Positions 13,279-40,956 of a stretch of 64,000 bases of DNA are shown in pieces. The notes beneath the pieces are model-generated. The model worked only from the letters and a program-made list of their open reading frames with translations, was not told the DNA's origin and made no database searches. Source of the DNA: Methanomassiliicoccus sp. (GTDB taxonomy: Archaea > Thermoplasmatota > Thermoplasmata > Methanomassiliicoccales > Methanomassiliicoccaceae). The translations under genes were made by a program, and so were the position numbers. The DNA lies in contig JAWQJJ010000005.1 of assembly GCA_033485155.1 (NCBI GenBank), forward strand, positions 1-64,000. The letters run 5' to 3'. The first letter of the stretch is position 1. Each line of letters starts with the position of its first letter.

Positions 13279-13378
13279 GACGATGCCTGGTTAGCGTGTG
13301 CCTGCTTATAATCCTGATGAATCTGGCCGTGAGGGGCTCCTGGATCGACGATCGGCCGATAGGCTCGGGCCTCGGGTA

Positions 13379-13434: not shown

Positions 13435-14295
13435 TTAATGGTACCTCGGCTGAAATTTGTCCACAGAATTGTCTAAATCGGAGTCTTTGAGGCCGAGATA
13501 TTGAATTGTGGTCTCCACCCTTTCGTGACCTGCAAATCGCTGGATCTCTGGGAGCGACATCCCGGCGAAGTAAAGATCTCGAAGGCAGGATCGCCTGAAG
13601 GTGTGAACGTCCAGAGATATGCCGATCCGCTTTCCATGACAATGAATTGCGGAGTAGATCCCGTCGTCTGTATATGGTCCGACTGGATGACCGTTCCTGG
13701 CTGGATGGAGCATGAAGAATTCGTTCCTTATCGTCCTCCTCCACGCCATATAAGGTTCGATCGCTTCCCAGAACTGCCTGGTCAATCTTATTCGCCGACC
13801 TTTGGATCCCTTTCCGAGAACAGTCAAATGATCCTGGTCGACCTCCGACCACTTCAGCTCTGAAAGTTCCGTTTCCCTGAGTGCTGTATATATCAATATC
13901 AGCATTAGGGTCTTCGTCCAGAGATCTTCGCATGACGAGATCACTGCAATAGTCTGTTCTTTCTCCAACCATCGAACTCTTGATCTCGTTACCTTGATCC
14001 GCAGCCGGAACTTTTCCGGCCATGATAGTCCCACATGCTCTAGGAAGAGCAGCATTACCATCATGTATCCCATCTGCGTCGAGGTTCGATACTTCTTCAC
14101 ATGCCTTTGATACTCTTGGGCATGGGAAGCTTCCCACTTCTTCGGGTTGTCCGGCCAGTTGTGTGACTCTCCGAACTTGATCGCCTGTAGAATTTCGCTC
14201 TTGTAGGTCTTCAGGGTTGTCTCCGGATAGTTCTGTTCCCTCAACTTCTCTATCCATTCGAGAGCCAATTTCCTGCTCGGTCTCATCCGTGGCAT
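13435..14295 (-). CDS. Tyrosine recombinase, element integrase
   Basis: 286 residues, complete. The N-terminal SAM-like core-binding domain spans about 1-110. The catalytic domain has TALRETELSELKWSEVD (first Arg), a Lys-containing beta-hairpin LTVLGKGSKGRRIRL, HTFRRSCLRDLYFAG (HxxR), FAGHERVETTIQYLGL (His and nucleophilic Tyr). It resembles the XerA/archaeal integrase group and should catalyse insertion and excision at the flanking repeats. It lies 35 bases inside the left repeat, the classical position, and 54 bases downstream of the small AbrB-like gene, with which it is probably cotranscribed and regulated. Confidence 0.93.
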   Translation of the reverse strand: MPRMRPSRKLALEWIEKLREQNYPETTLKTYKSEILQAIKFGESHNWPDNPKKWEASHAQEYQRHVKKYRTSTQMGYMMVMLLFLEHVGLSWPEKFRLRIKVTRSRVRWLEKEQTIAVISSCEDLWTKTLMLILIYTALRETELSELKWSEVDQDHLTVLGKGSKGRRIRLTRQFWEAIEPYMAWRRTIRNEFFMLHPARNGHPVGPYTDDGIYSAIHCHGKRIGISLDVHTFRRSCLRDLYFAGMSLPEIQRFAGHERVETTIQYLGLKDSDLDNSVDKFQPRYH

Positions 14296-14526: not shown

Positions 14527-14641
14527 TGCTCATAGTAATGGGCTTCTACGTATTTAATATATCTCATAGACTTTGAGATAACTATATCTATATTGGTATG
14601 AGAATAGTAATTAAATGTAGTAAATGGTATGGCGCATAAGA
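14527..14641. promoter_or_regulatory. Divergent control region with palindromic operator
   Basis: This 115-base AT-rich gap separates two divergent AbrB-like genes. It contains a perfect inverted repeat, TATCTCA at 14560-14566 and TGAGATA at 14574-14580, seven bases apart. TATA-like tracts lie on both sides (tatttaatata towards the left gene, ctatatctatattgg towards the right). Binding of one or both proteins here would control both promoters at once, as in a lysogeny switch; the role is inferred from position. Confidence 0.65.
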
Positions 14642-14845
14642 ATGAAACTAAAACGTTTAGATGGTGTCTCGAAAGTTCAGGGGTTCAATCAGATCACAAT
14701 AGTCAAGGATGCCAGGGAGATACTGGGAGCTACGAAGGGGGATACAATAGGTTTTTTTGAGATCGAAGGAACTCCAGGAATTGTCGTGATAGCGAAGGTA
14801 AGTGTCGTGATTTCGAGTGACTTTGAAGTAAAAGTTGACGATTGA
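14642..14845 (+). CDS. AbrB-like regulator, divergent partner
   Basis: 67 residues from the ATG at 14642 (MKLKRLDGVSKVQGFNQITI); an upstream ATG at 14624 is possible. The core reads NQITIVKDAREILGATKGDT, then IGFFEIEGTPGIVVIAK, the usual AbrB pattern of strand, K-x-R-E-x-LG-xxxGDxI, and hydrophobic strand. Its 3' end overlaps the end of the convergent gene at 14730. As the only plus-strand gene in the left 7 kb of the element, it may be the one expressed in the integrated state. Confidence 0.7.
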   Translation: MKLKRLDGVSKVQGFNQITIVKDAREILGATKGDTIGFFEIEGTPGIVVIAKVSVVISSDFEVKVDD

Positions 14846-15872: not shown

Positions 15873-17093
15873 TTATGTAACCCCCATCGCAGTTAGCCAT
15901 CTGGATATGGTCGACTGATTCACCGGATGATCATCGAGTGAGACACATTCTGCGATCTGATTCTGCGTCATGATGCCTTTGACATAGCAGATCTTCGCGA
16001 ACGCCATGTAATCTTGTTTTGTGATCTGCGACCGATCAAGGTTCAAAAAGTCAAGGATGAGCTTGAATGCATTGACCTCTTTTCCTTCCTTATACGCCAT
16101 CTCTTCCTGTTCGATCAGATAATCATGCATCGCATCGATGTCGAGGTCATCAAGCCTGAACGAACCGGGGTGTCCGGTCTGGAACTTGAGCTTAGTTCCA
16201 GGGACCTGATAAACCATCTCATCGACCGTACTCATACCCTTGATCACAAAGTGAACTCTCATTATCTCTTTCTCTATCTTTTGAACATGCCATACACCCA
16301 TTTCTTGAATGGCGGTTGGAACTTCTACCTCTCTTTGCGACAGCGCGATGATATTCAATCCGATCTTACGACATAGATAGAGAAGCTTCTTCAGATTGAC
16401 CCAATCGCCCTTTGTGGCCTTTTCCTTGCTTACTACCTGCAGGAACTCATCCAGGAACGCGAAGGTAAGCTTTCCTTGGAATAGATTATTGATCGCAAGT
16501 TCGACCAGTCCGCGTAGGCCGAAAATCCTTGTTACTCCAGGAGGAGCATCTTTCATCACGATGTTGGTCGCTACGCATTGACCCATTTCGAGAACAAATT
16601 CCATCATCCGGCAGGCAAAATCACTCTTACCAACTCCCAAAGGCTTGCCCTTTGGTCCGCTGATATATCCGAATGATCCTGGCTCTTTGATGGCATCAGT
16701 GAAATATTCCTTGGAGCAATGCGAGAATATCCGTCCACGCTTAGACTTGGAAGGATAGACGCCCATAGCCGCTACCCTAGTCATTGGATCGAGAGATTGG
16801 AGGGTTTTATTCATCAAACCAAAGACCTTATCGATGAAAACACGCTGGAAGTCCTGATCATTATAATTATCCCTGAATACCCAGGAATCGCGATCAACAT
16901 CCTTGGGGTCTGAATAGCTATAATTTATGAAGATGAGCATTTCCTCATAAGCTTTATCAGATGCAATGGTGCCAGCAAGTCTCACCAGCTTGTATCTGGT
17001 CCATTCATCTTCCTCAACCAATTGGAAGATCTCATCTAACGCTCGCTGTATCTGCAATCGAACTTCCATCATTTGCTCAGAAGCTTCGGCCAT
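15873..17093 (-). CDS. P-loop ATPase with C-terminal HTH (packaging/secretion-like)
   Basis: 406 residues from the ATG at 17093, chosen because gaggagggg lies just upstream. The P-loop region reads GPKGKPLGVGKSDFACRMM near residue 145, a variant with Lys at the usual first Gly; Walker B is LTFAFLDEFLQ near 220, followed by NIIALSQRE, a sensor-like strand. This order and spacing resemble the FtsK/HerA, VirB4 and Zot groups that move DNA through membranes or into virions. The last 60 residues end QNQIAECVSLDD then NQSTISRWLTAMG, a helix-turn-helix. The gene ends a five-gene overlapping operon of membrane proteins. The exact ATPase class needs a profile search. Confidence 0.7.
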   Translation of the reverse strand: MAEASEQMMEVRLQIQRALDEIFQLVEEDEWTRYKLVRLAGTIASDKAYEEMLIFINYSYSDPKDVDRDSWVFRDNYNDQDFQRVFIDKVFGLMNKTLQSLDPMTRVAAMGVYPSKSKRGRIFSHCSKEYFTDAIKEPGSFGYISGPKGKPLGVGKSDFACRMMEFVLEMGQCVATNIVMKDAPPGVTRIFGLRGLVELAINNLFQGKLTFAFLDEFLQVVSKEKATKGDWVNLKKLLYLCRKIGLNIIALSQREVEVPTAIQEMGVWHVQKIEKEIMRVHFVIKGMSTVDEMVYQVPGTKLKFQTGHPGSFRLDDLDIDAMHDYLIEQEEMAYKEGKEVNAFKLILDFLNLDRSQITKQDYMAFAKICYVKGIMTQNQIAECVSLDDHPVNQSTISRWLTAMGVT

Positions 17094-17769
17094 CTCCCCT
17101 CCTCTGGCGAAGCTTTTCCTCTTCACTCAGCATCTTTTCGGCTCGAGGCCTTTCAGCTATGATATTTACAATCTCCTCTGGTTTAATATAGGAGGTAAGA
17201 TAGGCCAGCTTCATAACCTTGTAATAGAGCTGCCTGGCGGTGCAATTGATACTTCTATAGCCATTCTCTTTTTGAGCATCAAGGGCCACGGCATAGTCTT
17301 GGATATTGCACACCAATTCACTATTCTTGACCTCGCTCAAGCTTGCCTTTTCTTCTTTATTCTCTCTGCTTGATACATAGCCGAAGACCTTCATTTCTCT
17401 TGAATCATTGACTCCTGCTTGGTCCGATCCAACAGTAACGATGTTGCAAGCATTCATCATATCTTCGATCTCATCGAATAATCGGCGCCACTCTGGATGC
17501 TTCTCTTCATTTCCAAGAACCAGAGGAGCTAAAACCGACATGATAAAGGAGGTCGACATCGTACAGCGATGGTTGAGTTCCTGTTCACTCTTGGATTCGG
17601 CGATCCATATGTGGCTAGTCATGATCATAGCTTTAGTTGCATCAAAATTAAAATCATCATGACTCATCGCCGCCAGCACTTGCATGTATCTTAGGAAAGT
17701 GGAACTTTCCTGAGCCGTCTGGATAGTAGGGAAAGGTAAGACGGATTGAGGCTGATTGCCAGCTTTCAT
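17077..17769 (-). CDS. Soluble helical protein of the ATPase operon, unknown
   Basis: 230 residues, no signal or membrane helix, mostly alpha-helical, with an acidic middle (SSRENKEEKASLSEVKNSEL) and a basic C-terminus (RQRRGDGRSF). Its start overlaps the preceding gene's stop by four bases and its end overlaps the ATPase start by 17, so it is translationally coupled to both. An adaptor or accessory of the ATPase is a reasonable guess from position only. Confidence 0.75.
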   Translation of the reverse strand: MKAGNQPQSVLPFPTIQTAQESSTFLRYMQVLAAMSHDDFNFDATKAMIMTSHIWIAESKSEQELNHRCTMSTSFIMSVLAPLVLGNEEKHPEWRRLFDEIEDMMNACNIVTVGSDQAGVNDSREMKVFGYVSSRENKEEKASLSEVKNSELVCNIQDYAVALDAQKENGYRSINCTARQLYYKVMKLAYLTSYIKPEEIVNIIAERPRAEKMLSEEEKLRQRRGDGRSF

Positions 17770-20310: not shown

Positions 20311-20994
20311 ATGGATCTCTTGTTCGGTTTGACCGCCGGAGCGATGCTCTTCCTTGGCGTAGTCGTCTTCCTTATCGGGTGGATCGGGTTCGGTATCCCC
20401 AAGAAGTACGGCTCGTGGATCAAGGTAATCGGCGGAATAATGGTCCTCATTGGCGCTGGGGCTTATGTTGGACTCATCGGCACTAGCGGCACTCCCCAGG
20501 CCACGATCGAAACCGCGACCTACGACATCGGCTACACCGAGTCCCAGGCCTGGCAGACCTATGATTCTGAGACCCACGTGATCACGGTCGCCATGAACTA
20601 CAACCTGACCAACAAGGCCTTCGTTGGCGGGACTGGCTCCATTACCGGCGTCTTCGCCCTCACCAGGTCCGATGCTCTGACCACCGATGCCAGCGCTCTC
20701 GGTACCCTCGGCAACGTGGCCATGGTCGATGTGACCGGCGCCTCTCCTGAGCCCATCCTGGCCCAGAACTCCGACAACTCCTACCAGTTCGTCTGGACCA
20801 AGGCCTCTGGCGCCACCGTTCACCCTGATGTCTCCGTGCTCGTGCCTGCCGGCGATAGCGTCAATGTGACCCTGACCGTCACCTTCAACGCTGATGCCGT
20901 GGACGCGATGGCCCACTACGAGACCCAGGACGTGACCTTCACCCTGGCCGGTGAGCAGTTCACCATCCACGCGATCCTGGCCACCGTGGCATAA
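20311..20994 (+). CDS. Membrane protein leading the surface operon (major structural candidate)
   Basis: 227 residues: two membrane helices within the first 55 (LTAGAMLFLGVVVFLIGWIG and IGGIMVLIGAGAYVGLIG), then a 165-residue extracellular beta-rich domain (VITVAMNYNLTNKAFVGGTG, VPAGDSVNVTLTVTF). Codon use is noticeably stronger (C-ending, few rare codons) than in its neighbours, and a structured leader precedes it; both would fit a highly expressed structural protein (inference). No capsid family recognised. Confidence 0.75.
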   Translation: MDLLFGLTAGAMLFLGVVVFLIGWIGFGIPKKYGSWIKVIGGIMVLIGAGAYVGLIGTSGTPQATIETATYDIGYTESQAWQTYDSETHVITVAMNYNLTNKAFVGGTGSITGVFALTRSDALTTDASALGTLGNVAMVDVTGASPEPILAQNSDNSYQFVWTKASGATVHPDVSVLVPAGDSVNVTLTVTFNADAVDAMAHYETQDVTFTLAGEQFTIHAILATVA

Positions 20995-21037
20995 ACCCCT
21001 TCCCTCTAACTCTTTTTCAAACGAGGGAGACGTATGC

Positions 21038-21679
21038 ATGAGCGACCAGGGTGTGAAGGTACTAACGAGAGTGGCAAACTCGGAGTTCGCGTTTGTCCTA
21101 TCGGTAGCCCAGCTGGTCGCTCTGATACCGCTCAGGATCTACCTGCCAGACCTGGACTGGAATGTAGCGATAACCTACATGCTGATCCCGGTTCTCCTGA
21201 CGTACTACGGGAAGCGGCTCCCGGACCTCATTCGGGGCGTCCGGCTGGTCGACATCATGTGGTATGGCACCATCGCGTTCACCCTTACCACCGTGGTCAC
21301 GCTCTACCTCTTCCGCGTAGTTTTAGGCACCACGCTAGGAACCCTGAATCCGCTGGAAGCGACCAGCGTGATAGCGACGCAGGTATTGTTCGTGGCTCCG
21401 AGCGAGGAACTGGCCTTCCGGTTCGCCGTTCCTTCATGGTTGAGGATGAAGTTCCCGAGGTCCTGGAAGTTCACCCCGATGCTGATAGCCTCGGCGACCT
21501 TCGCGCTCTTCCATTATACGGCCTACGCGGGCTCGTGGACCTCGATACTGATAGCGTTCATCATAGGACTGATCTGGGCGCTGGCTTACAGCCGATGGGG
21601 GCTCGGCGCCACAATAGGATCCCACTGCGCTTACAACCTGGTCGTTGCCGGCATGTGGTCACTCATCGGAGGTCTCTGA
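21038..21679 (+). CDS. CPBP-family intramembrane metalloprotease
   Basis: 213 residues from ATG 21038, preceded by gagggaga. Six or more membrane helices carry the CPBP (CAAX protease and bacteriocin-processing, Abi) motifs: APSEELAFRFAVP (motif 1, EExxxR), TFALFHYTAYA (motif 2, FxxxH) and GSHCAYNLVV (motif 3, HxxxN). Family members cut prenylated or hydrophobic membrane substrates, and bacterial ones give bacteriocin self-immunity. Within a structural operon it might mature one of the membrane proteins or act against competitors; this is inference. Confidence 0.88.
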   Translation: MSDQGVKVLTRVANSEFAFVLSVAQLVALIPLRIYLPDLDWNVAITYMLIPVLLTYYGKRLPDLIRGVRLVDIMWYGTIAFTLTTVVTLYLFRVVLGTTLGTLNPLEATSVIATQVLFVAPSEELAFRFAVPSWLRMKFPRSWKFTPMLIASATFALFHYTAYAGSWTSILIAFIIGLIWALAYSRWGLGATIGSHCAYNLVVAGMWSLIGGL

Positions 21680-21680
21680 C

Positions 21681-21962
21681 ATGAGTTCTGCAATGTCGTT
21701 ACTCGGAAGCTCAAAGCTCCTGATTGTACTCTTGGTGCTGGGAGCCATCTTCTCATGGGTAGGTCTGGCCTTCTTCGGAGTGGCCATCCTATCGGCTGCG
21801 ATAATAGGGGCGCTGATCGGGATATTCATTCCCGCCATCCTCATCCTGGTGGCCTTCCTGGTGCTGATCGGCATAGTCCCGACACCCGGCTGGCAAATGA
21901 GGATGATCATCAGCATTGGACTGATCATAGTCGCCTGGATCATCTCCAAGGGGATAATATGA
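21681..21962 (+). CDS. Small membrane protein (three helices)
   Basis: 93 residues beginning MSSAMSLLGSSKLLIVLLVL one base after the protease stop. Nearly all of it is hydrophobic: three helices rich in Ile/Leu/Val with short polar turns. No motif. Ends in a four-base overlap with the next gene. Confidence 0.7.
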   Translation: MSSAMSLLGSSKLLIVLLVLGAIFSWVGLAFFGVAILSAAIIGALIGIFIPAILILVAFLVLIGIVPTPGWQMRMIISIGLIIVAWIISKGII

Positions 21963-22180
21963 GCATCTGGCCGATAAGCTGGTTCGAAGGCGCGGTCCAG
22001 AGCCAGACTGACCACATGATGTCGATGATAATACTCGTCGTGGTCGGACTTTTCATCGCTGTGGCTGGGCTCGCGATCGTGGCAAGGAAGATCCCCGTCC
22101 CTGGAGGCATCTGGGGCCAGTACATAGTCGGCTTCGGGGTCACCATCTTCGGGCTTCTAATGGCAGCGGGAGTGATGTGA
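21959..22180 (+). CDS. Small membrane protein (two helices)
   Basis: 73 residues, MSIWPISWFEGAVQSQTDHM followed by two membrane helices (MSMIILVVVGLFIAVAGLAI and IVGFGVTIFGLLMAAGVM) around a basic loop RKIPVPGG. It overlaps both neighbours by four bases (ATGA). Small two-helix proteins in such operons are often envelope components; the function is unknown. Confidence 0.7.
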   Translation: MSIWPISWFEGAVQSQTDHMMSMIILVVVGLFIAVAGLAIVARKIPVPGGIWGQYIVGFGVTIFGLLMAAGVM

Positions 22181-22776
22181 TGATACCAAAGAGGATGAAA
22201 GACAGGAAAGGAGCGATGGGGCTGGCGGTCTCGGCCCTCATCGTGATCATGATAGTCATCATCGCTGGGCTGACCATGTACGTCATTGCCGGTGATGTTC
22301 TGACCGGCAATCCGGATGACGATACGCCATATAAGCCTGGAGACAACAGCACCTCGGCGCCGATCTTCGCCTACTTCACCGTAGTTGCTCACTGCAAGTT
22401 CGATAACTCGCAGTACGACAACCACGTGATCTACGGACTCAACTCGATCGACGTTACCTGGAACTCCGATCCGTCAAGCGAGAGCATGACCATCTTCGAT
22501 GGCTTCGGAAAGCTGGCCGACTGGTTCACGGCGCATGATGCGAAGTACAAGGTGACATACAAAGTCACGTCTCCGGCTGAGGCGGGTTATTCAAAGACAT
22601 ATACCGCAACTGGAGAACAGCACGTTGGAGCCTTACAAAGCAAGAATGTTGATGTCTCCATGCCTGGCTCTCCCGGGATTCGCTACGAAGGCCCATACAC
22701 TGTTCTGGTGACGCTCTTCGATGGCGATGGCAATGTTGTGAGCTCCCTATCCAAGACTGTGCAGGTGACGAAATGA
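22177..22776 (+). CDS. Type IV pilin-like anchored surface protein
   Basis: 199 residues. The N-terminus, MIPKRMKDRKGAMGLAVSAL, puts a short basic stretch and a Gly-Ala next to a 24-residue hydrophobic helix (VSALIVIMIVIIAGLTMYV), the look of an archaeal class III prepilin signal (K/R-G/A cleavage, PF07790-like). The ectodomain is beta-rich with an immunoglobulin-like end. Could be a filament or spike subunit; the alternative is a plain signal anchor. No prepilin peptidase is encoded in the element, so a host enzyme would be needed. Confidence 0.65.
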   Translation: MMIPKRMKDRKGAMGLAVSALIVIMIVIIAGLTMYVIAGDVLTGNPDDDTPYKPGDNSTSAPIFAYFTVVAHCKFDNSQYDNHVIYGLNSIDVTWNSDPSSESMTIFDGFGKLADWFTAHDAKYKVTYKVTSPAEAGYSKTYTATGEQHVGALQSKNVDVSMPGSPGIRYEGPYTVLVTLFDGDGNVVSSLSKTVQVTK

Positions 22777-23570
22777 AGCGACTCTTCCTAGTAATTGGCG
22801 CCATTCTGGCGATCGCCATCCTTGGTTTCGCTATCCTAGGTCCCGCATTGACCAAGGGGGCCAGCGATGCATGGGATGATCTCAACGGGAAAGATGAATC
22901 GGTCCAGGCCACCGCGACCATCTATATCGCCGATGGTAGCGGCAATATCATGACCGCTGATGTTCCCATCGGTGATGCTACTCCAGGAGAAGCGATGATG
23001 CTGGCTTTCGGGCAGGGCATCAGGGGAGTTCAGTTCGAACCGCTTTCGTACTCTGCATCCACCTCTAAGCTGTGGTTCACCGGCGTCAACTATCAGATCT
23101 GGGGCGTGGTCAATGCCCAGCTGACCAGCAATAATGCCCAGTTTACTAAGGTATCAGCGACCTTCACCGGGCTCTCTGGTGCTACCCAGCGCGATGCTCC
23201 AGGTGTCTCTCCGAATCACCTTACCAGCGCCTACAAGATGCTGGGAAAGGATAAGTCGACCTCATCCTTCACCGTCACCCAGACCAGCGGCCTGGGCAAT
23301 GGTGCGACCGTCAGCCTTAACCAGGATACAAAGGCCTCGGATGATTCGGATAGGTTCTGTTACTTCAGCGACTCCGTTAGCACTTCGATCCTCAGCGGGG
23401 ATTACGTCGATGGTTCGATGATAAAGGTGAAGCTGGAGGTCTACGGCACGACTCCGGATGGCCAGCAGAGCTACAACTACTATAACGCGGACATCCTGAT
23501 CAGCGCTAGCAGCTGGGATAGCGGCTATGTCTCGGCCTCGATCACCGGAATGAGCGCAGGTGGTATCTGA
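22773..23570 (+). CDS. Anchored surface protein, unknown
   Basis: 265 residues with an N-terminal helix (FLVIGAILAIAILGFAIL) and a Ser/Thr/Asp-rich extracellular domain of beta type (VQATATIYIADGSGN, FTGVNYQIWGVVNAQLTS, YINYNADILI-like end). It overlaps the pilin-like gene by four bases. No cysteine motif or enzymatic signature is visible. Probably part of the same surface structure. Confidence 0.75.
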   Translation: MKRLFLVIGAILAIAILGFAILGPALTKGASDAWDDLNGKDESVQATATIYIADGSGNIMTADVPIGDATPGEAMMLAFGQGIRGVQFEPLSYSASTSKLWFTGVNYQIWGVVNAQLTSNNAQFTKVSATFTGLSGATQRDAPGVSPNHLTSAYKMLGKDKSTSSFTVTQTSGLGNGATVSLNQDTKASDDSDRFCYFSDSVSTSILSGDYVDGSMIKVKLEVYGTTPDGQQSYNYYNADILISASSWDSGYVSASITGMSAGGI

Positions 23571-23794: not shown

Positions 23795-26578
23795 ATGAAC
23801 TTTTCCAGAACATTCGCTCTAACCATCCTGGCAGTTCTATTGCTGTCAGGTTTCGCTTGCTTGATGGTCGCTCCCAGCGGGATCTCTCCCATGGGGAATG
23901 CCAGCGCAACCACGGCACATGGTGGTTACCTTTGCATCACCTTCGATGATGGCACTCAGGGAGAATATGATAATGCATTTGGAACGCTGTCATCATATGG
24001 AATTCCTGCAACCGTTTACATGCCTTCTGATTTTGTCGGGATGGATGGGCGCCTGACCGCTTCTGAACTCATCGAGATGCAAGATGCAGGATGGGAGATC
24101 GGAAGCCACGGCAAGACCCATACCGACTTCACCAATCAATCAGCCGAGACTTATACAGCGGAGATGGCCGACTCCAAGGCCGCTCTAACGGCACTCGGGC
24201 TGAACGTGGTCTCTCTGGCCTACCCTTTCGGGGGCAATAACGCAGCCATACGCGCTACTGCTGCCACTTACTATGAGAGGATGAGGACCGCCAATGATTA
24301 TGAGATCTACCAGAACCACTTCACCTCATCGGTCCGCAATGTCGGCGTAGTATTCCCAACCACCATCACCGATGTCAATGCTGAGCTGGATCGTGCCATC
24401 GCCACCAACTCATCGATATGCTTCATCTATCATCAGGTCCTGGCCGGGGGGGTCATCGACGGCACATCGTACACAGTAACCCAGCTCTCCGATGCCGTGA
24501 TAGCCAAGGAGACCGCCAACGGCCTGCAGGCTCTCAGGTTCAGGGACCTGAGCAGCATTGGCACTACCGATATATGCGAGTGGGTAGCGACCGCCGATGG
24601 CGTCTTCTCCAACGCTGCCAATTGGGCCGATGGCGTAGTTCCAACCACCGGCAAGAACATACTGCTCTCTTACAGATCCAACAAGAATATCACCTTCGAT
24701 ACTGCCATCACTCTCGGCGACATCTATGGCACGATCGATTATACTGGCTCTCTGATCCAGGGGTCGGTCGCGCTTCACTATCGGAGCATGAACATGGCCG
24801 GAGGGGTCTACACTCCGAGCAGCACGGCCGCTTACACCAACATCTGCGATAATCAGCTGAGGCACCGTGGCACTATCGGCAACAATGGTTACCTGACCAT
24901 CAACGGGGTCGGCGTCGATCTCAATTCCGGCGCTACCTGGACCTCCCTGACGGTCAACGGCGCCATTCGATTACAGCAGACCTGCGGTTACAAGACCCTG
25001 CATGTCGCGTCCGGAGCCAGCATCAGCATCATTGCCACGAAGAACTTTATCCTCAATACCGGAGGAACCTTCGACAACCAGGGTACCATCAATGGTCCGG
25101 GTGGCGTGGTCTTCTACGTCACCGCAAACTACAACGTGAATCTAGGGGTCATCAACGCGCCGATACGCTTCAACGCGCCTTCCTTCACTTCCAGTTCCTA
25201 TACCGCCTCGCTCTCGGCGAATGCGGTCATGGGGAGTACCTTAGGAGTGGATTCGAGCCATGCCTCGAGGACCGCAACCCTGGATGTCAATGATAAGGAC
25301 ATCAGCTGTACGGGAGTTTCAGTAACCGTAAGAGCGGTCATGATGGGCGGTACCGGGACCATCACCGATAGCGGCAACTGGGATACCAGCGCCGGTACCT
25401 GGACGCCGGAAAGCTCCAAGCTCATCTTCACCGGGACCAGCGCCACGGTCAAGACCGCTGCCGCCCAGACCTTCTATGATCTCACCGTAGCAGCCGGCGC
25501 TTCCGTGACCCTGCAGAGCGATGTGGTGGTCACCCATGCCTTCCATCTCAATGGCACGATCAATAAGAACGGCCATAATCTGACCGTCCCGGCCGGATAC
25601 GAGAACCAGATCACCAGCACCCCTACCTATAACGTGGCTCAGGATGCGGCCTATTCCTACACTCCGACCGCCAACCAGGTAGGGACGTTCAACGCTACCA
25701 GCTCAGCCTCATGGCTCACCTGGGATGGCTCAAAGCTGGTCGGAACTCCCAACGCCGGCGATGTCGGTTCGGTCAACGTCGATGTATCCTTCACCAATGG
25801 GGTCTCGACCGTCCACCAGCTCTACACCATGAATGTAACCAATGTGGCGCCGGTCTTCACCGTCGACCCCATCGACAGCTGGAGCTACGGAAATACTTAT
25901 CTCTTCGATGCCCAGACCAATGAGGAGGGGCTTGGAGTAACCTATTCCTTCACCACCAGCAGCACATCGATGGACTTCTGGATAGAGCCGGACAGCGGGG
26001 TATTGAGGGCGCACATAACCGACGTGAACGATACGCAGATCTCGATCATCGCCAACGATGGTCATGGCGGGATCGCATACCAGAACTACACTCTCCATGT
26101 GACCTCTGCCCCTTGGGATCACGAGATCACCATCCTCTATACTGAGGGTCTGAACTACCGCGTCAGCTTCGATTTCGCCATGAACGACAGCGCGAAGGGG
26201 AGCATCGATCGCATACAGTGGAACTTCGGCGATGGAAACGGCTCGAGGGATATGACCCCGGTTCACACCTATGACCAGCCGGGAAAGTACCTGATCACAT
26301 GCTGGGTCCGTCTTACCGATGGCACTGCCAGCGCCAAGAGCATGGAGATATCCGTAGGCGATCCGCAGACCGTCGCCAACATCGATAATGCGGTCATGGA
26401 GAAGCTTACCCAGGCGCTCTATATGGTCGCCTTGGTGGTCGTGGCCGGCGCTGTTCTGATGTTCGCCTATGCTCGCTACTCTGGACTTCGCGGACGATTC
26501 AATCAGATGGTCCTTTACCTGATAGCGGTTGGCATCGTGGCCATCTCCATCATCATCGTAGGAGGTGCATTGATATGA
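23795..26578 (+). CDS. Giant anchored polysaccharide deacetylase (NodB domain)
   Basis: 927 residues: signal peptide (1-34), NodB/CE4 domain (about 42-235), beta-repeat region (about 265-600), Ig-like domains including a He_PIG type (about 610-790), a PKD domain (WNFGDGNGSRDM, about 805-855) and two C-terminal membrane helices. The CE4 motifs are complete: TFDDG (catalytic and metal Asp), SHGKTH (metal His pair), AYPFGG. CE4 enzymes remove N-acetyl groups from glycans. Placed on a long stalk with a C-terminal anchor, it looks like a spike that binds and edits the host cell-surface polysaccharide. A ribosome-binding run (ggtgggga) precedes the ATG, with a 73-base gap upstream that could hold a promoter. 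Confidence 0.88.
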   Translation: MNFSRTFALTILAVLLLSGFACLMVAPSGISPMGNASATTAHGGYLCITFDDGTQGEYDNAFGTLSSYGIPATVYMPSDFVGMDGRLTASELIEMQDAGWEIGSHGKTHTDFTNQSAETYTAEMADSKAALTALGLNVVSLAYPFGGNNAAIRATAATYYERMRTANDYEIYQNHFTSSVRNVGVVFPTTITDVNAELDRAIATNSSICFIYHQVLAGGVIDGTSYTVTQLSDAVIAKETANGLQALRFRDLSSIGTTDICEWVATADGVFSNAANWADGVVPTTGKNILLSYRSNKNITFDTAITLGDIYGTIDYTGSLIQGSVALHYRSMNMAGGVYTPSSTAAYTNICDNQLRHRGTIGNNGYLTINGVGVDLNSGATWTSLTVNGAIRLQQTCGYKTLHVASGASISIIATKNFILNTGGTFDNQGTINGPGGVVFYVTANYNVNLGVINAPIRFNAPSFTSSSYTASLSANAVMGSTLGVDSSHASRTATLDVNDKDISCTGVSVTVRAVMMGGTGTITDSGNWDTSAGTWTPESSKLIFTGTSATVKTAAAQTFYDLTVAAGASVTLQSDVVVTHAFHLNGTINKNGHNLTVPAGYENQITSTPTYNVAQDAAYSYTPTANQVGTFNATSSASWLTWDGSKLVGTPNAGDVGSVNVDVSFTNGVSTVHQLYTMNVTNVAPVFTVDPIDSWSYGNTYLFDAQTNEEGLGVTYSFTTSSTSMDFWIEPDSGVLRAHITDVNDTQISIIANDGHGGIAYQNYTLHVTSAPWDHEITILYTEGLNYRVSFDFAMNDSAKGSIDRIQWNFGDGNGSRDMTPVHTYDQPGKYLITCWVRLTDGTASAKSMEISVGDPQTVANIDNAVMEKLTQALYMVALVVVAGAVLMFAYARYSGLRGRFNQMVLYLIAVGIVAISIIIVGGALI

Positions 26579-29505: not shown

Positions 29506-29766
29506 TTACCCTTCCATCTTTTTAATGTCCCTGATGTTGATCGATGCCCTCTTTATCTCGATCGAGAAGGTCATGATGAGGGCTTGAGCGCATATTCTGT
29601 CATGTCCGCAGGCTAGGCAGTAGCGAGAGCCTGTGGCATGGTGACCGAAGCACTTTTTTGGCTCGTAAGTCTGGGATTTTTTCTGTATTTTCAGCTCGAT
29701 CCTGGGCACTTCCTGATTATTATCCATGATCATGATGGAAAGTGCCTCCGAAGGTGCCTTTTTCAA
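29506..29766 (-). CDS. Small zinc-ribbon-like protein
   Basis: 86 residues from a TTG that overlaps the stop of the hydrolase gene (TTGA), so translation would be coupled; a start at an internal ATG (MDNNQEVPRIELK) is an alternative. It contains CFGHHATGSRYCLACGHDRI followed by Cys: a Cys/His-rich knot typical of a small zinc-binding domain. It converges on the spike gene with a 20-base gap. Confidence 0.55.
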   Translation of the reverse strand: MKKAPSEALSIMIMDNNQEVPRIELKIQKKSQTYEPKKCFGHHATGSRYCLACGHDRICAQALIMTFSIEIKRASINIRDIKKMEG

Positions 29767-31091
29767 GCGCTCACCGCCAAGATCCCGAACTTGGTCGCTA
29801 GCATGAGCGCGGCGAAACCTGTAAGGACGACGCCCAGAGCTAGCACCCTGGAGCGCCGCTTATAGGTTCCTATCATTGCTACGGCAATTCCTCCGGCCAT
29901 GAGATAGTAAGGGACCTCTCCGGCCGCTCCTATGTTGTACAGGTTCGGGATGCTGTTGACGATCGCGCCAGCGCCGCTCCCGCCGCTACCGTTCCCCGGG
30001 GTGATGTGCTGAGCATCGAGAAGTGATCCTCCGGTGTAGGGGTAGTTGTTCATCGGGTTCATGACCATGGAAGTTATGGCCTGCCCCCCATTGGCGAAGA
30101 TCCTCGACTCGGCATAGGTCCAGCGAACGTAAGTGTTTCCGGCATTGTAGCCTAGCTCTGACCAGTAGAGAGGAATGCCATCGTTCTCGGCCCAAGCCTC
30201 TGGATCGGCGAACAGATACTCATCGGTCGCGGTCGCATAGTAATGACGAGAAGCGATCTCCCATCCAACCTTTCCTGTGGCTAGGTCGAAGTCGCTCTGA
30301 CCCCATCCGAACATGGCACCCTGGCCGGCAACGCCCATGGTGCGGGGCTGCGCTCCTGAGATCTTGGTTGCCGAGCATACCGCCTTCTCCCAGGAGTTTA
30401 TGCCATTCTTACCGTTGTGGGATGCCCAGTAGGAGTAGTAAATGGCGTCGTAATCCGGCTCATTCCAGAGATCGAACATCCCGATGCCGTCCTCTCCCTT
30501 GACGGCGCTTATGGTCGACTTAACATAGGTGATGTAGCCAGAGTAGGCGCTCGAGGAGGTATCGAAGGCCGATCCGCTCCCGCCGAAGGTGAAGGTATCA
30601 GTCTCGGCGGTCCCGGCCATTACCAGGCAGATCCACACGCCATGATCGGCCGCTTGCCTTGCCATGGTCTTCAGGAGGGTGAAGTATTCGCTCTGATGGT
30701 TGGCCCAAGCATCATACTGGATTGACGATCCCCACTTATCGCCGGCTCCGATGCGGACCAGGTTCATTCCATAGTAATTGCACAGAGCGAAATATTGATG
30801 AAACAAGGTCTCGGCGTCGCCGTTCTGGGTGATGGTTCCTTGGGGTCCCGGAAAATTCTGGTTCTTACCACGATAAACAGCCTGGTCCTCAATGTAAGAC
30901 AATATGGCGAACTGCAGGACTGTGGTATCACATACCCCATAGAGTTCATCCGATAGCTTGGAGCCATCGACGGTCAGCGTGTGGCCGCTGGTTCCGATCC
31001 TTGCCGCCTGCACGTCCATCGGAATAGAACAGAGTAAGAGGACTAAGCAGAGTATGATGGCAAGAGAAGAAGCCAACCGATTGTGGCTCAT
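29763..31091 (-). CDS. Clan-A glycoside hydrolase, anchored (GH5/cellulase-like)
   Basis: 442 residues from ATG 31091 (MSHNRLASSLAIILCLVLLL), chosen because it overlaps the upstream stop as ATGA and has aaggtga before it. Signal peptide 1-30; TIM-barrel-like catalytic part with FDLWNEPDYDA (acid/base Glu in the N-E-P motif) and YWSELGYNAG (nucleophile Glu candidate); a Gly/Ser linker; then a C-terminal helix pair and basic residues (YKRRSRVLALGVVL) as anchor. Clan-A enzymes hydrolyse beta-glycosidic bonds. A surface glycanase in a provirus would fit entry through or exit from the host glycan layer; the substrate is unknown. Confidence 0.78.
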   Translation of the reverse strand: MSHNRLASSLAIILCLVLLLCSIPMDVQAARIGTSGHTLTVDGSKLSDELYGVCDTTVLQFAILSYIEDQAVYRGKNQNFPGPQGTITQNGDAETLFHQYFALCNYYGMNLVRIGAGDKWGSSIQYDAWANHQSEYFTLLKTMARQAADHGVWICLVMAGTAETDTFTFGGSGSAFDTSSSAYSGYITYVKSTISAVKGEDGIGMFDLWNEPDYDAIYYSYWASHNGKNGINSWEKAVCSATKISGAQPRTMGVAGQGAMFGWGQSDFDLATGKVGWEIASRHYYATATDEYLFADPEAWAENDGIPLYWSELGYNAGNTYVRWTYAESRIFANGGQAITSMVMNPMNNYPYTGGSLLDAQHITPGNGSGGSGAGAIVNSIPNLYNIGAAGEVPYYLMAGGIAVAMIGTYKRRSRVLALGVVLTGFAALMLATKFGILAVSA

Positions 31092-31939
31092 GGGTTCACC
31101 TTGAAGGGCCACCAACTCCTTACCTCGGTCGCTTCGCCAATATAAATTCCCAGAGGGGCCTTGGAGATCTTATTGAGATGAAGGAATCCTTCTTGATGAA
31201 GATCGGCATCACCGAAAATCGTATCCGTTGTTAGGTGGCATTTACCATCGCCACCCTTATTCATGATGCAATGTGCATCATTGATGTGAGTTCCGCCGAG
31301 ATCTGTTCCTGAGACTGGATAGTGATCGACCGCTCCGAAGGCATGACCGATCTCATGGGCAGCACACCATCGCCAGTAATGGTCGGTGATGTAGTAGCTA
31401 ACTCCATCGTTGGAGAAGCCCAAGACGACCCTGGCCCCCCCATAAGTATTCATGTTGCGTGGTCCGTGGACGGCCCATACAATAAGGTCGGCGGAATCGT
31501 AGATGGATGAGAATTTATCCTCATTGTAGCGTACGAATGAGTCGACGATCTGAGTGCTTCCGTCGCTCGGATCTAGCTGATCGACATAAAGCTGAGTGAC
31601 TTTGTAATCATAATAGGAAAAGGACATATGCACGCCGTATTTTTCATAAAATTGCTGGACGGAATATTCGCCAGCGATGGGTGTTTCCATTATGTTCTTT
31701 AGAGCATTGATCGCGGCCGGATCCTTATTGACTCCATAATAGAGGTAGACCACCGCGACCTTTACTTTGCCATCAGATACATCGACCGAATAGCTATCGG
31801 AACTCTTGGCCAGAAGACAGTATGCTCCAAAGGCTCCACCAATGAGCAATATTACGATAATGATAGCCACCAGTGGCGCTAGTGCTTTTGAGTTCCCCCA
31901 CTTCTTGATCTTTAAAGCGGGCGCTGAACGGCGATGCAT
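31088..31939 (-). CDS. Anchored metzincin-like metalloprotease
   Basis: 283 residues. A basic N-terminus and a membrane helix (LVAIIIVILLIGGAFGAYC, about 23-42) anchor an extracellular domain with the extended zinc site AAHEIGHAFGAVDHYPV (HExxHxxGxxD) near residue 185 and a Met-turn candidate HCIMNKGG. That combination defines metzincin-type zinc endopeptidases. It is the first gene of a three-gene operon with the glycosidase. A TATA-rich leader lies in 31940-31989. Expected to cut protein on the outside of the cell or particle, such as the S-layer or the spike itself (inference). Confidence 0.85.
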   Translation of the reverse strand: MHRRSAPALKIKKWGNSKALAPLVAIIIVILLIGGAFGAYCLLAKSSDSYSVDVSDGKVKVAVVYLYYGVNKDPAAINALKNIMETPIAGEYSVQQFYEKYGVHMSFSYYDYKVTQLYVDQLDPSDGSTQIVDSFVRYNEDKFSSIYDSADLIVWAVHGPRNMNTYGGARVVLGFSNDGVSYYITDHYWRWCAAHEIGHAFGAVDHYPVSGTDLGGTHINDAHCIMNKGGDGKCHLTTDTIFGDADLHQEGFLHLNKISKAPLGIYIGEATEVRSWWPFKVNP

Positions 31940-31989
31940 GGTAGTAAATATACTCCACAGTTATAATTTATTATTGGTGGTTATATCCT

Positions 31990-32235
31990 TTATATATTGA
32001 AATTATAACCTATAACTGTGGGGAATATTGATTCGGAATAGTTATCAGAGTAGCTAGGATAGGTTGCGGTAGTGTTGTTCGATTCGTTCTCCACGTGATC
32101 GATCACAATGACCAGCTGCTGATCATTGTTCTCGGCATCTTGAGCACCGACAATGACATAGGAGAACATCGCAGTGACACAGATCCCCCATAATGTGAGT
32201 CCGATCGCCAATCTCTGTCTGTATGATCGAGCCAA
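31990..32235 (-). CDS. Small anchored protein
   Basis: 81 residues with a single membrane helix (LAIGLTLWGICVTAMFSYVI) and a short Asn/Ser/Thr-rich ectodomain with sequons (NESNNTTATY). The ending lies directly before the AT-rich promoter of the protease operon. No family recognised. Confidence 0.65.
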   Translation of the reverse strand: MARSYRQRLAIGLTLWGICVTAMFSYVIVGAQDAENNDQQLVIVIDHVENESNNTTATYPSYSDNYSESIFPTVIGYNFNI

Positions 32236-32599: not shown

Positions 32600-32823
32600 T
32601 CCTTTCCCTCCGAATGTCGTGTCTCTTCCTTCTCATCCGATATTACCCCCAAATATGGGGGCGCGCCTAACATAAGAATTGGAAAAGCTGCCATCCTGGC
32701 AAGATGAGCATTGAAACCCCACCCTGGTATCTTTTTCCAGAGAAGAATCTCGCCAGCCAGGATTAGCCCGAAGGCAAGACAGCCCAGAAGGATGACGAAA
32801 CCGGTGATAAAATCCTCGATCAT
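32596..32823 (-). CDS. Two-helix membrane protein
   Basis: 75 residues with helices at about 5-26 (FITGFVILLGCLAFGLILA) and 40-60, ending EKEETRHSEGKE. Four-base overlaps link it to the recombinase gene upstream and the membrane protein downstream. Confidence 0.7.
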   Translation of the reverse strand: MIEDFITGFVILLGCLAFGLILAGEILLWKKIPGWGFNAHLARMAAFPILMLGAPPYLGVISDEKEETRHSEGKE

Positions 32824-33464
32824 ATGCCAAACCTCGTACAGTCGGAGTATATTCTAGACCTCTGTCGAATGTTAAGGTGTAGGTAGATCTGAGTAACTTC
32901 GATGGATGCGTGACCAAGGTTATTCTTCACCACTTCTAAGGGAATCCCTTTATCTAGCTGCCAGGTCGCGCATGTATGCCGTAGCATGTGAGTATTCATT
33001 GAAAGACCTGCACGAGGAGCTATCACTTCGGTGACATGACGTTGGAGGGTTCTCTTCGAGCACTTGAAGAGTTTATTATCAGGCTTCAGCTTCTCTTCGG
33101 CAATGTAACATTGTATCAGGGCGATGGTCGAAACGTCGATCGGAGCATACCTGTCCTTCGAGAACTTTCCTTGCCGCACGAACACCGAGCGTTGATTTGG
33201 GTCAATGTCCTTAACAAGTACGTTCGTGGCTTCATTTACCCGGAGTCCGGCGTAGAGCATTATCCGACAAGCGATAAGGTCCTCGATGTCATCGACCGCT
33301 AAGAGGAACCTATCCTGTTCGTCGTATGTGAGAATCTTCGGGAGGACTAGACCGCCCCGGACCCGTTCGCCTTCCTCTTCCTCCTCTTCCTTTAGATCCT
33401 CTCTAAGCTCTTCGTCCTCCTCGGAATTTGTCACCTTTGTTTTTTCGAGGGGGTTTTCGAGCAT
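32820..33464 (-). CDS. Second tyrosine recombinase, core-binding domain replaced
   Basis: 214 residues. The catalytic domain is complete: LYAGLRVNEATNVLVKDID (Arg), FVRQGKFSKDRYAPID (Lys), NTHMLRHTCATWQLDKG (HxxR), NNLGHASIEVTQIYLHL (His, Tyr). In place of the SAM-like core-binding domain there are about 40 highly acidic residues (EEDEELREDLKEEEEEEGER). It sits in the middle of the element, cotranscribed with small membrane proteins. Such truncated catalytic-domain recombinases could resolve dimers, invert a segment or act as an excision partner. No inverted repeat that would mark an invertible segment was found around it. Confidence 0.88.
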   Translation of the reverse strand: MLENPLEKTKVTNSEEDEELREDLKEEEEEEGERVRGGLVLPKILTYDEQDRFLLAVDDIEDLIACRIMLYAGLRVNEATNVLVKDIDPNQRSVFVRQGKFSKDRYAPIDVSTIALIQCYIAEEKLKPDNKLFKCSKRTLQRHVTEVIAPRAGLSMNTHMLRHTCATWQLDKGIPLEVVKNNLGHASIEVTQIYLHLNIRQRSRIYSDCTRFGI

Positions 33465-36854: not shown

Positions 36855-37305
36855 CGATTGTCCTCCCCACCCTCGTTTGGCTAACTGCCGTCAGAAGCTT
36901 CTTCGCGAAGTCTGACTTTTTTGGATCCTCGCTTTCAACTTGTCTCTCAAAAAGAGCTTTCAATCCAGGGCTTTCGCGAACACGCTGGATGACAAAAGGT
37001 TGAATTTTAACTTCGCCTCCATGGAATTGATCCTCATCAAGATCCATTAGGCCAGTGACCAATTCTTCCATGGTGCCCAATGTTGCAAAATTTATCTGTG
37101 GGATAACATCCAGCTTTGCGAGCTTTGAATCCTTTACAGCCTTTCTGAACTTTGCAGCGGCAACAGGACCTTCGCGTTCATCGATCTCCCTTGCTGTTAG
37201 TATCTCATCTTCATTGAGACCTTTATCAGCCGCGTTCGGTCTTGGTCCATCATCTTCCTGCTGATGGATATCCCTTATCAGATCCTCATAAGCAGTATAG
37301 GCCAT
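36847..37305 (-). CDS. Acidic soluble protein, unknown
   Basis: 152 residues from ATG 37305, overlapping the upstream stop (ATGA). Acidic first half (HQQEDDGPRPNAADKGLNED), helical C-terminal half ending TAVSQTRVGRTIDG. No motif recognised. Confidence 0.65.
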   Translation of the reverse strand: MAYTAYEDLIRDIHQQEDDGPRPNAADKGLNEDEILTAREIDEREGPVAAAKFRKAVKDSKLAKLDVIPQINFATLGTMEELVTGLMDLDEDQFHGGEVKIQPFVIQRVRESPGLKALFERQVESEDPKKSDFAKKLLTAVSQTRVGRTIDG

Positions 37306-37673
37306 CAAAGATCACCATCTACGATCTGTGACCTCTCTCGGCCGGCGGCGCGCGTTTGAACGCTGTAATCGGGTTCCTCTACCTCGATCGCATTTTCTGG
37401 AACTCCCTTGAGCTTACGGACCCTTGAATATGCTTCATCAGAAAGCCTATAGCCGAACTTATTGACCTTTCTAATATAACCGCAATCCTCGAGGATCCTG
37501 CGCTTATTGCGATGCGTCCTCGGATCTTCCAAGTAGAATGGTCTGCTCCGGAGCATCTTTTGCATGTCCGACCAACTGAAGGATCCATGCTCACTCTCCA
37601 AGGCAAGATCTGCGAGGCCTCTAAGGAGCTCATCGATATCCGCTTCCCTTCGTTTCACGTCGAACTCGTTCAT
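37305..37673 (-). CDS. Small DNA-binding-like protein, first after the repeat region
   Basis: 122 residues. The centre, MLRSRPFYLEDPRTHRNKRR, then ILEDCGYIRKVNKFGYRLSD, has the look of a winged helix (recognition helix plus hairpin wing). gggtgg lies before the ATG. It is the first gene downstream of the inverted-repeat region at 37683-37978, so it may be the initiator or autoregulator of that site. This is inference. Confidence 0.6.
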   Translation of the reverse strand: MNEFDVKRREADIDELLRGLADLALESEHGSFSWSDMQKMLRSRPFYLEDPRTHRNKRRILEDCGYIRKVNKFGYRLSDEAYSRVRKLKGVPENAIEVEEPDYSVQTRAAGRERSQIVDGDL

Positions 37674-37682: not shown

Positions 37683-37978
37683 TTGTGTGTTGTGTTGTGT
37701 TGTGTTGTGTTGTGCTGTGTGCCTCCTTTTGCGAGGCTGTGCCTTGCCAGCGAGCGCTAATTTGTAGAGCTTGCTATGCTAGCGCTACCGCTAGTGCACC
37801 GTTGTCGCGACGCAAGCAGCGAGGGGGTAAATTAGGGGGAGATGACGGACACAAAAAATGGTCCATCAAAATACCTAAAATACATACTGGCTATCCTCAA
37901 ACTGCTCTTGTCTTCAGTACCAATCTCTACAGGGTCTTCCTTTAGAGAGAGGCACACAACAACACAACACAACACATA
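37683..37978. repeat. Inverted pentamer-repeat region, origin candidate
   Basis: A GTTGT/TGTGT pentamer array (37683-37722, about seven units) faces its complement (ACAAC units, 37952-37978) about 230 bases away. Between them are a perfect palindrome, CTAGCG-CTAC-CGCTAG at 37779-37794, a second around TCGCGA near 37805, and a G-rich/AT-rich run. Iterons plus palindromes in the one gap in front of the early operon is how many plasmid and viral origins look. The right array also lies within a possible gene at 37832-38170. Confidence 0.5.
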
Positions 37979-38894: not shown

Positions 38895-38968
38895 CAGCGG
38901 GACCCCCGAACCAAGATTCCTAGATTGGAATTGTACCTGTCCAGCTCAGCCAGATATGACGAATGGCT

Positions 38969-38989
38969 AAAGACTTATTAACCGACCTG
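38969..38989 (+). repeat. Right attachment-site repeat (attR) and tgtA promoter
   Basis: Matches 13379-13399 at 18 of 21 bases: AAAGACTT, then a variable triplet core, then AACCGAC and a TG end. It contains the TATA-like box of tgtA, whose ATG at 39004 is about 25-30 bases downstream, so the tgtA mRNA would be nearly leaderless. The element therefore ends inside the promoter and supplies or restores it. Confidence 0.65.
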
Positions 38990-39003: not shown

Positions 39004-40956
39004 ATGTTCGAGCTCATCAGGCGCGACGGCCTGGCCAGGATCGGGAAGCTGGATACCCCCCATGGGCAGCTGGAGACGCCGGCGCTCCTGCCGGTGGTGA
39101 ACCCCCGCCTGGTGACCGTCCCTCCCCGGGAACTGCACGACGTGTTCGGCTTCCGGGCCCTTATCACCAATTCCTACATCATTAGGAACGATCCCAAGCT
39201 CAACGCCAGGGCCAAGGAGGTCGGTCTGCACGAGATGCTCGACTTCCCCGGGGTCATCATGACCGACTCCGGCACCTTCCAGTCGCACATGTACGGTGAG
39301 GTCGAGGTCAAGAACGAGGACATCATCAACTTCCAGCGGGACATCGGCACCGACATCGGTACGGTGCTGGACATCTTTACCGAGCCGGACTGGAGCAAGG
39401 AGAAGACCTCTCACGCGGTCGATGTCACCATGGACCGGACCATCGAGGCCGCTCAGCTGAAGGGTGGCATGCTCCTCGCCGGCGTGGTGCAGGGCTCGGT
39501 GTTCGAGGACCTGCGTGAGGATTGCGCCCGCCGCCTGGCGCTCGTGGATGTGGATGTGCACCCCATCGGCGGAGTGGTGCCGCTCATGGAGCAATATAGG
39601 TTCACGGAGCTGGTCGACGTCATCGTGGCGTCCAAGAAAGGGCTGGACCCCAGCCGGCCGGTCCACCTGTTCGGCGCTGGGCACCCCATGGTGTTTGCCC
39701 TAGCCGCCCTCTTGGGCTGCGACATGTTCGATTCCGCCTCCTATGCCAAGTTCGCCCGGGACGACCGGTTCATGTTCCCCGAGGGCACCGCCAGCCTGGT
39801 AGACATGAAGGGAGTGCACTGCCACTGCCCCGCCTGCCAGTCCCATTCCTACCAGGAGATCGTGGCGATGAAGCCGGCGGAGCGCACGGCGCTCATCGCC
39901 CGCCACAACCTGTGGGTCTCGCTGGAGGAAGTGCAGCGGGTCAAGCGGGCCATCCTCGAGGGGGACCTGTGGGAGCTGGTGGAGAGGCGCTGCCGCGCCC
40001 ATCCCGCCCTGCTCAGCGCCCTGCGCCGGCTGGCCAGGCACAAGGGATATCTGGAGAAGTTCGAGCCCTTGAGCCGAGACAACAGCCTGCTGTACACCGG
40101 TCCGGAGACCCTGAATCGCCCGGTGTTCCTCCGCTACGAGCAGAGGTTCTTCGAGCGTTACAAGTACCCTGACACCGAGGTCATGGTAGCATTCGAGGAG
40201 TCCGGGAAGCCGTACGCCAGGCACTACCAGAAAGAGATGGCCGATGTGCTGGAATCGTGCGATGCCCACTTCTTCGTCGCTTCGCCGGTGGGTGCCGTGC
40301 CCATCGAGCTCGACGAGATGTATCCCGTGGCCCAATCGTTGTTCCCCGAGCCCGTGGACCGGGAGACCAAGGAGCGGATCAGGGAACAGATGGAGCACCT
40401 ATCTCATGAGCACCCCTATGCGCTCGGAGTAGCGTGGGATGGACAAGCTACGATCGACACCCTGGAGATGATGTGCCGGAAGAAGCCATCATTCGACATC
40501 GACATCGCCAGGGTGCGGGCGGTATGCGACTACCAGTTCGGCAAGGGTGCGGCGGACATACTGCTGAAGGGCAGGGTTACGATCAAGAAATCGGAGACCA
40601 CCGGCAAGATCAGGAACGTGCTTGTGGACGGGGAGCACATCCTATCCATGCGCGCCAACGATGGCTTTTTCACTCTCCGCCCACCGGGAGCAGTGCGACT
40701 CAAGAACGGATTCCCCGCCCCCCGGCTCAGGGTGACGGTCAAGGATGATTCCATACCATTCAACCGTGAGGGCAAGAACGTGTTCAACGCGTTCGTGATC
40801 GAGTGCGACCCCGAACTCCGCCCCATGGACGAGGCCCTGGTCGTGGATCAGAAGGATGAGCTGGTCGCGCTCGGGCGGACCATGCTGACCAGGGACGAGA
40901 TGTTCTCCTTCCGCACCGGGATCGCTGTCAAGGTCCGCGAGGGCATCAAGCTCTGA
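39004..40956 (+). CDS. tgtA: Archaeosine tRNA-guanine transglycosylase
   Basis: 650 residues. Exchanges guanine 15 in the tRNA D-loop for preQ0, the first tRNA-bound step to archaeosine. The catalytic TIM-barrel has IMTDSGTFQSHMYGE (catalytic Asp near 88) and GVVPLMEQYRF, the zinc site CHCPACQ with a downstream His (ARHNLW), then the archaeal C-terminal domains ending in a PUA domain (about 560-645; KNVFNAFVIECDPELRPMDE). Length fits the full-size archaeal enzyme. It is the first host gene to the right of the element, and its promoter overlaps the attachment repeat. Confidence 0.97.
   Translation: MFELIRRDGLARIGKLDTPHGQLETPALLPVVNPRLVTVPPRELHDVFGFRALITNSYIIRNDPKLNARAKEVGLHEMLDFPGVIMTDSGTFQSHMYGEVEVKNEDIINFQRDIGTDIGTVLDIFTEPDWSKEKTSHAVDVTMDRTIEAAQLKGGMLLAGVVQGSVFEDLREDCARRLALVDVDVHPIGGVVPLMEQYRFTELVDVIVASKKGLDPSRPVHLFGAGHPMVFALAALLGCDMFDSASYAKFARDDRFMFPEGTASLVDMKGVHCHCPACQSHSYQEIVAMKPAERTALIARHNLWVSLEEVQRVKRAILEGDLWELVERRCRAHPALLSALRRLARHKGYLEKFEPLSRDNSLLYTGPETLNRPVFLRYEQRFFERYKYPDTEVMVAFEESGKPYARHYQKEMADVLESCDAHFFVASPVGAVPIELDEMYPVAQSLFPEPVDRETKERIREQMEHLSHEHPYALGVAWDGQATIDTLEMMCRKKPSFDIDIARVRAVCDYQFGKGAADILLKGRVTIKKSETTGKIRNVLVDGEHILSMRANDGFFTLRPPGAVRLKNGFPAPRLRVTVKDDSIPFNREGKNVFNAFVIECDPELRPMDEALVVDQKDELVALGRTMLTRDEMFSFRTGIAVKVREGIKL

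Follow-up and report, generated by a model that had tools for sequence, protein, structure and literature searches.

A predicted metzincin-like protease and a GH5-like glycosidase encoded together in an integrative element of Methanomassiliicoccaceae

Introduction

A described precedent for the locus analysed here is the fusellovirus SSV19, which hydrolyses the N-glycan of its host; this activity has been ascribed to VP4, a tailspike that contains an endo-mannanase domain, and this 137-kDa virion protein has been compared with an endo-mannanase active on alpha-mannan (PMC12042106). A prominent cell wall is not seen in M. luminyensis, which is probably able to synthesise activated mannose for its N-glycans (PMC4153887). 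How elements and viruses interact with the cell surface in Methanomassiliicoccales is poorly understood.

We analysed a window of Methanomassiliicoccus sp. DNA (the whole stretch of 64,000 nucleotides, to which positions refer unless a contig or locus is named) in which a putative protease gene is coupled to a putative glycosidase gene. The locus resembles SSV19 VP4 (PMC12042106) in that an archaeal mobile element carries a mannanase-type domain which, as we propose here, is directed toward the cell surface; it differs in that this domain is predicted to form a separate anchored enzyme. The glycosidase shares with the GH5 mannanase type (3wh9, 1qno) a predicted TIM barrel, with the acid/base Glu of the NEP motif past strand 4 and the nucleophile Glu at the end of strand 7, as well as conserved Arg, Asn, His and Tyr residues. 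However, it is only ∼11-16% identical to GH5 mannanases, has no Pfam match, is membrane-anchored and belongs to a family that our searches found in Methanomassiliicoccales only. The protease shares the HExxHxxGxx-D/H zinc site and a downstream Met with reprolysin-like metzincins (PF13583, M12B-like), but Asp replaces the third His, the protein is short with an N-terminal anchor, and homologs within the phylum went undetected.

Results and discussion

The gene pair lies within an integrated element

The protease and glycosidase genes are located inside an integrated element of 25.6 kb that is flanked by pth2 and tgtA (Table 1). In a sister genome this site is empty, i.e. the two genes are adjacent and the alignment ends lie 43 bp apart (L047), while other relatives have unrelated short contents in the interval. 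The end repeats of the element are identical at 20 of 25 positions, which none of 293 random region pairs equalled, and joining the flanks in silico gave approximately the element-free site of genome G005. With its defined ends, its integrase and the empty site in relatives, the stretch is by sequence an integrated mobile element.

Table 1. Positions of the element's features and flanking genes in the window
Feature	Position	Strand	Remarks
pth2 (flanking gene)	12916-13278
attL-like end repeat	13375-13399	+	GGTAAAAGACTTTTAAACCGACTTG
Tyrosine integrase	13435-14295	-	left element end; PF00589, 1.9e-21
Small AbrB-like protein	14624-14845	+	assigned by eye; beside integrase
Putative P-loop ATPase	15873-17126	-	packaging-like by eye; C-terminal HTH-like similarity
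Membrane/surface protein block	20311-23570	+	CPBP/Rce1-type intramembrane protease at 20951-21679
Polysaccharide deacetylase with PKD domain	23795-26578	+	secreted, C-terminally anchored
Large surface protein, 933 aa	26684-29485	+	two C-terminal hydrophobic segments; adhesin/spike candidate
Small ORF	29506-29766	-	86 aa, TTG start; overlaps glycosidase by 4 bp
GH5-like glycosidase (predicted), secreted, C-terminally anchored	29763-31091	-	442 aa; Glu211 (WNEPD), Glu312 (WSE)
Metzincin-like protease (predicted), membrane-anchored	31088-31939	-	283 aa; HEIGHAFGAVD 195-205, CIMN 224-227; PF13583
Promoter region of protease-glycosidase unit	31947-32029	-	inverted repeat CCACAGTTATA and TATA-like box; operator-like
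Second tyrosine recombinase	32820-33464	-	PF00589, 1.2e-27
Winged-helix-like protein	37305-37673	-	assigned by eye
attR-like end repeat	38965-38989	+	GGCTAAAGACTTATTAACCGACCTG; upstream of tgtA
tgtA (flanking gene)	39004-40956

The element encodes many small membrane proteins in addition to the proteins listed. The start of the 933-aa surface protein is likely to lie about 58 codons into its ORF. The putative ATPase weakly resembles phrog_1979 and a terminase, and no homolog of it was found in 147 genomes of the order. Since no capsid or terminase was recognised among the element proteins scanned (PHROG, Pfam), that the element is a virus is only a conjecture. Inverted repeats of TGTGT/ACACA type, with about 236 nt between the arms, are also present inside the element (37686-37976).

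The pair forms an operon-like unit with a separate promoter region

The two ORFs are encoded on the minus strand, and the four-base overlap that had been claimed for them was confirmed: the protease stop and the glycosidase ATG (31091) overlap in the 4 nt ATGA. Judged by this layout, protease and glycosidase are one operon-like unit with products predicted to face outward, and they are probably made together. Upstream of the protease, the arms of the inverted repeat CCACAGTTATA (31955-31965 and 32011-32021) enclose an A+T-rich TATA-like stretch, AATATATAAA; exact copies of the arms occur nowhere else within the window, and the 83-bp promoter stretch does not recur as a repeat in the genome. 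This arrangement fits a promoter under the control of a repressor.

A third gene, downstream of the glycosidase, had been put forward as zinc-ribbon-like. We reject this assignment, as the ORF has a single CxxC (residues 50-53) in place of the two CxxC/CxxH knuckles of a zinc ribbon, its remaining Cys residues are scattered, and neither Pfam nor NCBIfam gave a match. This ORF, with its TTG start, may not be a gene.

Predicted properties of the two enzymes

The original prediction of a membrane-anchored metzincin-like protease held up. The single hydrophobic segment of the protein is N-terminal (residues 14-47), the zinc-site motif HExxHxxGxxH/D is present, and the CIMN sequence is a Met-turn candidate at a plausible spacing, the turn itself being invisible in a model that was built from a single sequence and is unusable (pLDDT 42). 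The sole curated-level family match was a marginal one to Pfam PF13583 (Reprolysin_4; 23.3 bits, cut-off 22, E=5.5e-5), and searches of NCBIfam and of PDB sequences gave zero matches. The motif and the marginal profile match are the basis for calling the protein metzincin-like, and it is a likely protease.

No homologs of the protease at E<=0.001 were found in 390 genomes of the phylum, and a search of 150 relatives returned one 48-residue match only, around the hydrophobic N-terminus (E=7.6e-4). Phage records contained no homolog, plasmids no credible homolog, and none was found in a peptide-seeded scan of IMG/VR. The IMG/VR scans (protease, glycosidase, ATPase and 933-aa protein) depend on short conserved peptides, so that distant relatives are missed and their outcome says little. 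Searching the relatives with PF13583 gave zeros, which carry little weight because the same search misses the window's own protease. A six-frame scan of 0.88 Mb of sequence (redundant) revealed no other ORFs of >=100 aa with HExxHxxGxx[DH]. The protease is, by sequence and among the searches made, an orphan.

For the glycosidase, the claim of a secreted, anchored clan-A enzyme with both catalytic Glu motifs was likewise supported. The protein has an N-terminal signal (residues 2-32) and a C-terminal hydrophobic segment (residues 414-441), and Arg113, Asn210, Glu211, His283, Tyr285 and Glu312 are invariant in an alignment of 24 homologs. A Pfam search with the glycosidase alone gave no match, PF00150 included; three of the 24 aligned family members do match PF00150 (best E 6.2e-6), and the family profile reaches the GH5 mannanase 1qno (E=3.3e-4). 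An AF2 model built from 17 sequences (mean pLDDT 70) is a (beta/alpha)8 barrel in which Glu211 lies just past strand 203-207 (beta-4) and Glu312 ends strand 308-313 (beta-7), a placement that agrees with the clan-A arrangement; for the glycosidase, the catalytic geometry, whose loss would have spoken against the original prediction, is consistent in the model. When this model was compared with the PDB using Foldseek, the top matches were nearly all GH5, mannanases first (probability 1.00, E down to 1.2e-8), at identities of 11-16% and modest TM-scores of ∼0.4-0.6. Because of the invariant residues, the reach of the profile to 1qno, the modelled positions of the Glu residues and the Foldseek matches to GH5, the glycosidase is predicted to be, and likely is, a GH5-like retaining enzyme.

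These features bear on the alternative that both products are catalytically inert and act by binding, as lectin-like proteins or receptor decoys. In its favour, the protease is an orphan whose third ligand is Asp and whose profile score is marginal, and the long branch of the glycosidase (see below) may reflect relaxed constraint; however, the clan-A catalytic positions of the glycosidase are all intact and invariant, and the protease retains both HExxHxxGxxD and the Met-turn Met undamaged in an open frame of 283 codons. We consider inert binding proteins highly unlikely.

The glycosidase belongs to a family of the host lineage

The host genome contains seven copies of the glycosidase family, and every one of the 15 host-family genomes has homologs, which led us to reject the idea that the glycosidase is specific to the element. 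Beyond the host family, two more of the 150 genomes searched, both from the same order, had homologs, and matches of the family profile among 390 genomes of the phylum were restricted to the host family. A scan of one genome per species gave 20 glycosidase loci, titled either Methanomassiliicoccus and relatives or, vaguely, Euryarchaeota or Methanomicrobia MAG. By these sequence searches, the glycosidases form an uncharacterised GH5-like family confined to Methanomassiliicoccales. The original prediction had counted a pair conserved in host chromosomes outside any island as evidence against it; this applies to the glycosidase, which is chromosomal in 15 of 15 family genomes, and does not apply to the pair.

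The chromosomal glycosidases of Methanomassiliicoccaceae (the G000:C8, C3 and C2 copies and those of relatives) are of the same family as the element glycosidase, with 41-55% barrel identity in the host family. Their contexts are ordinary (archaellum genes, hypE/hydrogenase and metabolic genes), and most have long Ig/PKD-type tails; the host paralogs carry adhesive repeats of the Big, PKD and He_PIG types. In contrast, the element copy consists of the catalytic barrel and a membrane anchor, without adhesive repeats, and has the protease gene before it. In the family tree a long branch (0.77) close to the base leads to the element glycosidase, which is therefore related to the host copies without recent duplication; a recent copy of a host paralog was rejected on these grounds. 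Its lineage could be old within elements. Taken together, the pair is very probably element cargo related to the host glycosidase family.

The host copies also raise the alternative that the pair is cargo that benefits the host while riding on the element, serving adhesion to, or use of, environmental or gut glycoproteins as the host's other surface glycosidases may do. The adhesive repeats of the host paralogs and their location among ordinary chromosomal genes agree with such a role, whereas the element glycosidase has an anchor only and lacks the repeats; moreover, polysaccharide use is not known in methyl-reducing hydrogen-dependent methanogens. We regard this alternative as unlikely.

Two side observations concern this family and its tails. 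At L026:6932-9836 two glycosidase genes lie in tandem, and part of their interior is almost the same in both, suggestive of gene conversion. In the window, outside the element, positions 58307-63199 encode a 1630-aa surface protein with an SBBP beta-propeller and Big_7 Ig-like repeats, and the Ig part of this protein resembles the host glycosidase tails.

The closest related element lacks the pair

Integrase and deacetylase both have their best homologs (E=3.5e-45 and E=3.5e-49, respectively) on one contig of a related genus, G012:C31 (L101:1-17687). This contig is 17,687 bp long, and its first and last 23 bases are identical; it is probably circular, the alternative being a repeat. Genes for the integrase, the AbrB-like protein (44% over 48 aa), the winged-helix protein (34% over 87 aa) and the deacetylase are common to the contig and the element, in corresponding order. 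The contig differs in having no protease-glycosidase pair, a different ATPase and different surface proteins, and its own serine resolvase; it encodes neither a NEP-motif protein nor a HExxH protein. As it keeps the integrase, the two DNA-binding-type genes and the deacetylase without the pair, the pair is dispensable for this type of element. Within the few relatives compared, gene content is suggestive of the deacetylase being shared core and the protease-glycosidase pair cargo. The lone IMG/VR match to the deacetylase was on an unrelated contig with other phage-type genes and was set aside.

The host's own genome contains an island-like stretch (G000:C2:400-419 kb, L099) with a related integrase (E=2.3e-38) and several large secreted or surface proteins; the pair is absent. 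One of its proteins has repeats resembling those of the deacetylase protein. No metzincin motif was found near the glycosidase homologs examined. The proposal that the pair recurs in other islands was therefore rejected, given its absence near these homologs, from G012:C31 and from C2:400-419 kb.

In another genus, the pth2-tgtA interval of G009:C13 (L024:1-12000) is occupied by a 5.8-kb stretch, and the glycosidase encoded there is the closest homolog (55%). This stretch is not a copy of the element, as its content is unrelated and an integrase was not seen; the unrelated content indicates that the pth2-tgtA interval is variable.

The comparison of elements bears on the alternative of a virion-borne entry tool, i.e. 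anchored enzymes in the envelope of an archaeal virus that cut glycans and protein of the host coat on contact. The hydrolysis of host N-glycan by SSV19 is a precedent (PMC12042106), and the mannanase-like fold predicted for the glycosidase, together with the putative ATPase, the many small membrane proteins and the anchored adhesin-like protein of the element, would suit such a tool. However, the putative virion/adhesin block (20.3-29.5 kb) is on the other strand, and the pair, which has a promoter region of its own, is missing from G012:C31; the glycosidase belongs to a chromosomal host family, and no capsid or terminase gene was recognised. An entry or egress role is possible by analogy with SSV19, while enzymes borne on a virion appear unlikely. 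The original prediction had gone further and read protease, glycosidase and deacetylase as three tools of a dedicated entry or egress module. Anchored hydrolases and a deacetylase do occur together in one mobile element, but a dedicated module is unsupported because the glycosidase family is chromosomal, G012:C31 lacks the pair, and the pair has the opposite strand and its own promoter region.

Proposed role of the pair

The reading we prefer, with a probability of about 0.5, is that the pair is an accessory surface-remodelling operon with which the coat of the carrier is actively remodelled; we favour it over entry because the operon is separate, the glycosidase is of host kinship and G012:C31 lacks the pair. 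In the scheme we infer, which extends to the activity of the enzymes and their substrate, to their acting jointly, to their regulation and to a benefit for the element, the pair would be accessory cargo, an operon carried by a virus-like integrative element (25.6 kb) of Methanomassiliicoccaceae, with the glycosidase descended from a host-lineage family of GH5-like surface enzymes. The operon would have its own promoter, probably controlled by a repressor at the flanking inverted repeat. Both products would face outward, the protease held by its N-terminal segment and the glycosidase by its C-terminal segment. As the enzymes are predicted to face outward and are probably co-produced, their most likely target is the glycoprotein coat of the carrier cell, on which they would act in cis, the glycosidase trimming beta-linked glycans, possibly mannose-containing, and the protease cutting exposed protein. 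The surface would be altered or loosened to the gain of the element, either by loss of receptors and superinfection exclusion or by release.

A bolder version, distinctly unlikely in our judgement, is that the element represents an undescribed enveloped virus or virus-like family of Methanomassiliicoccaceae in which a host glycosidase and an orphan metzincin make up a regulated module for breaching or remodelling the coat of an archaeon without a prominent cell wall.

If active, the operon would supply two defined enzymes for probing coat composition and for asking whether a host surface enzyme has been turned, in an archaeal mobile element, to work against the carrier or for it. The analysis also delimits an apparently undescribed type of element, of which the family has at least two members, and brings out the uncharacterised GH5-like family described above.

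A trace of integration was also seen in the window outside the element. At 4014-4395, a broken integrase fragment with an internal stop adjoins a tRNA-Ala gene (4319-4395), bordering a region of low G+C (1-4 kb), and appears to be a remnant of another integrated element.
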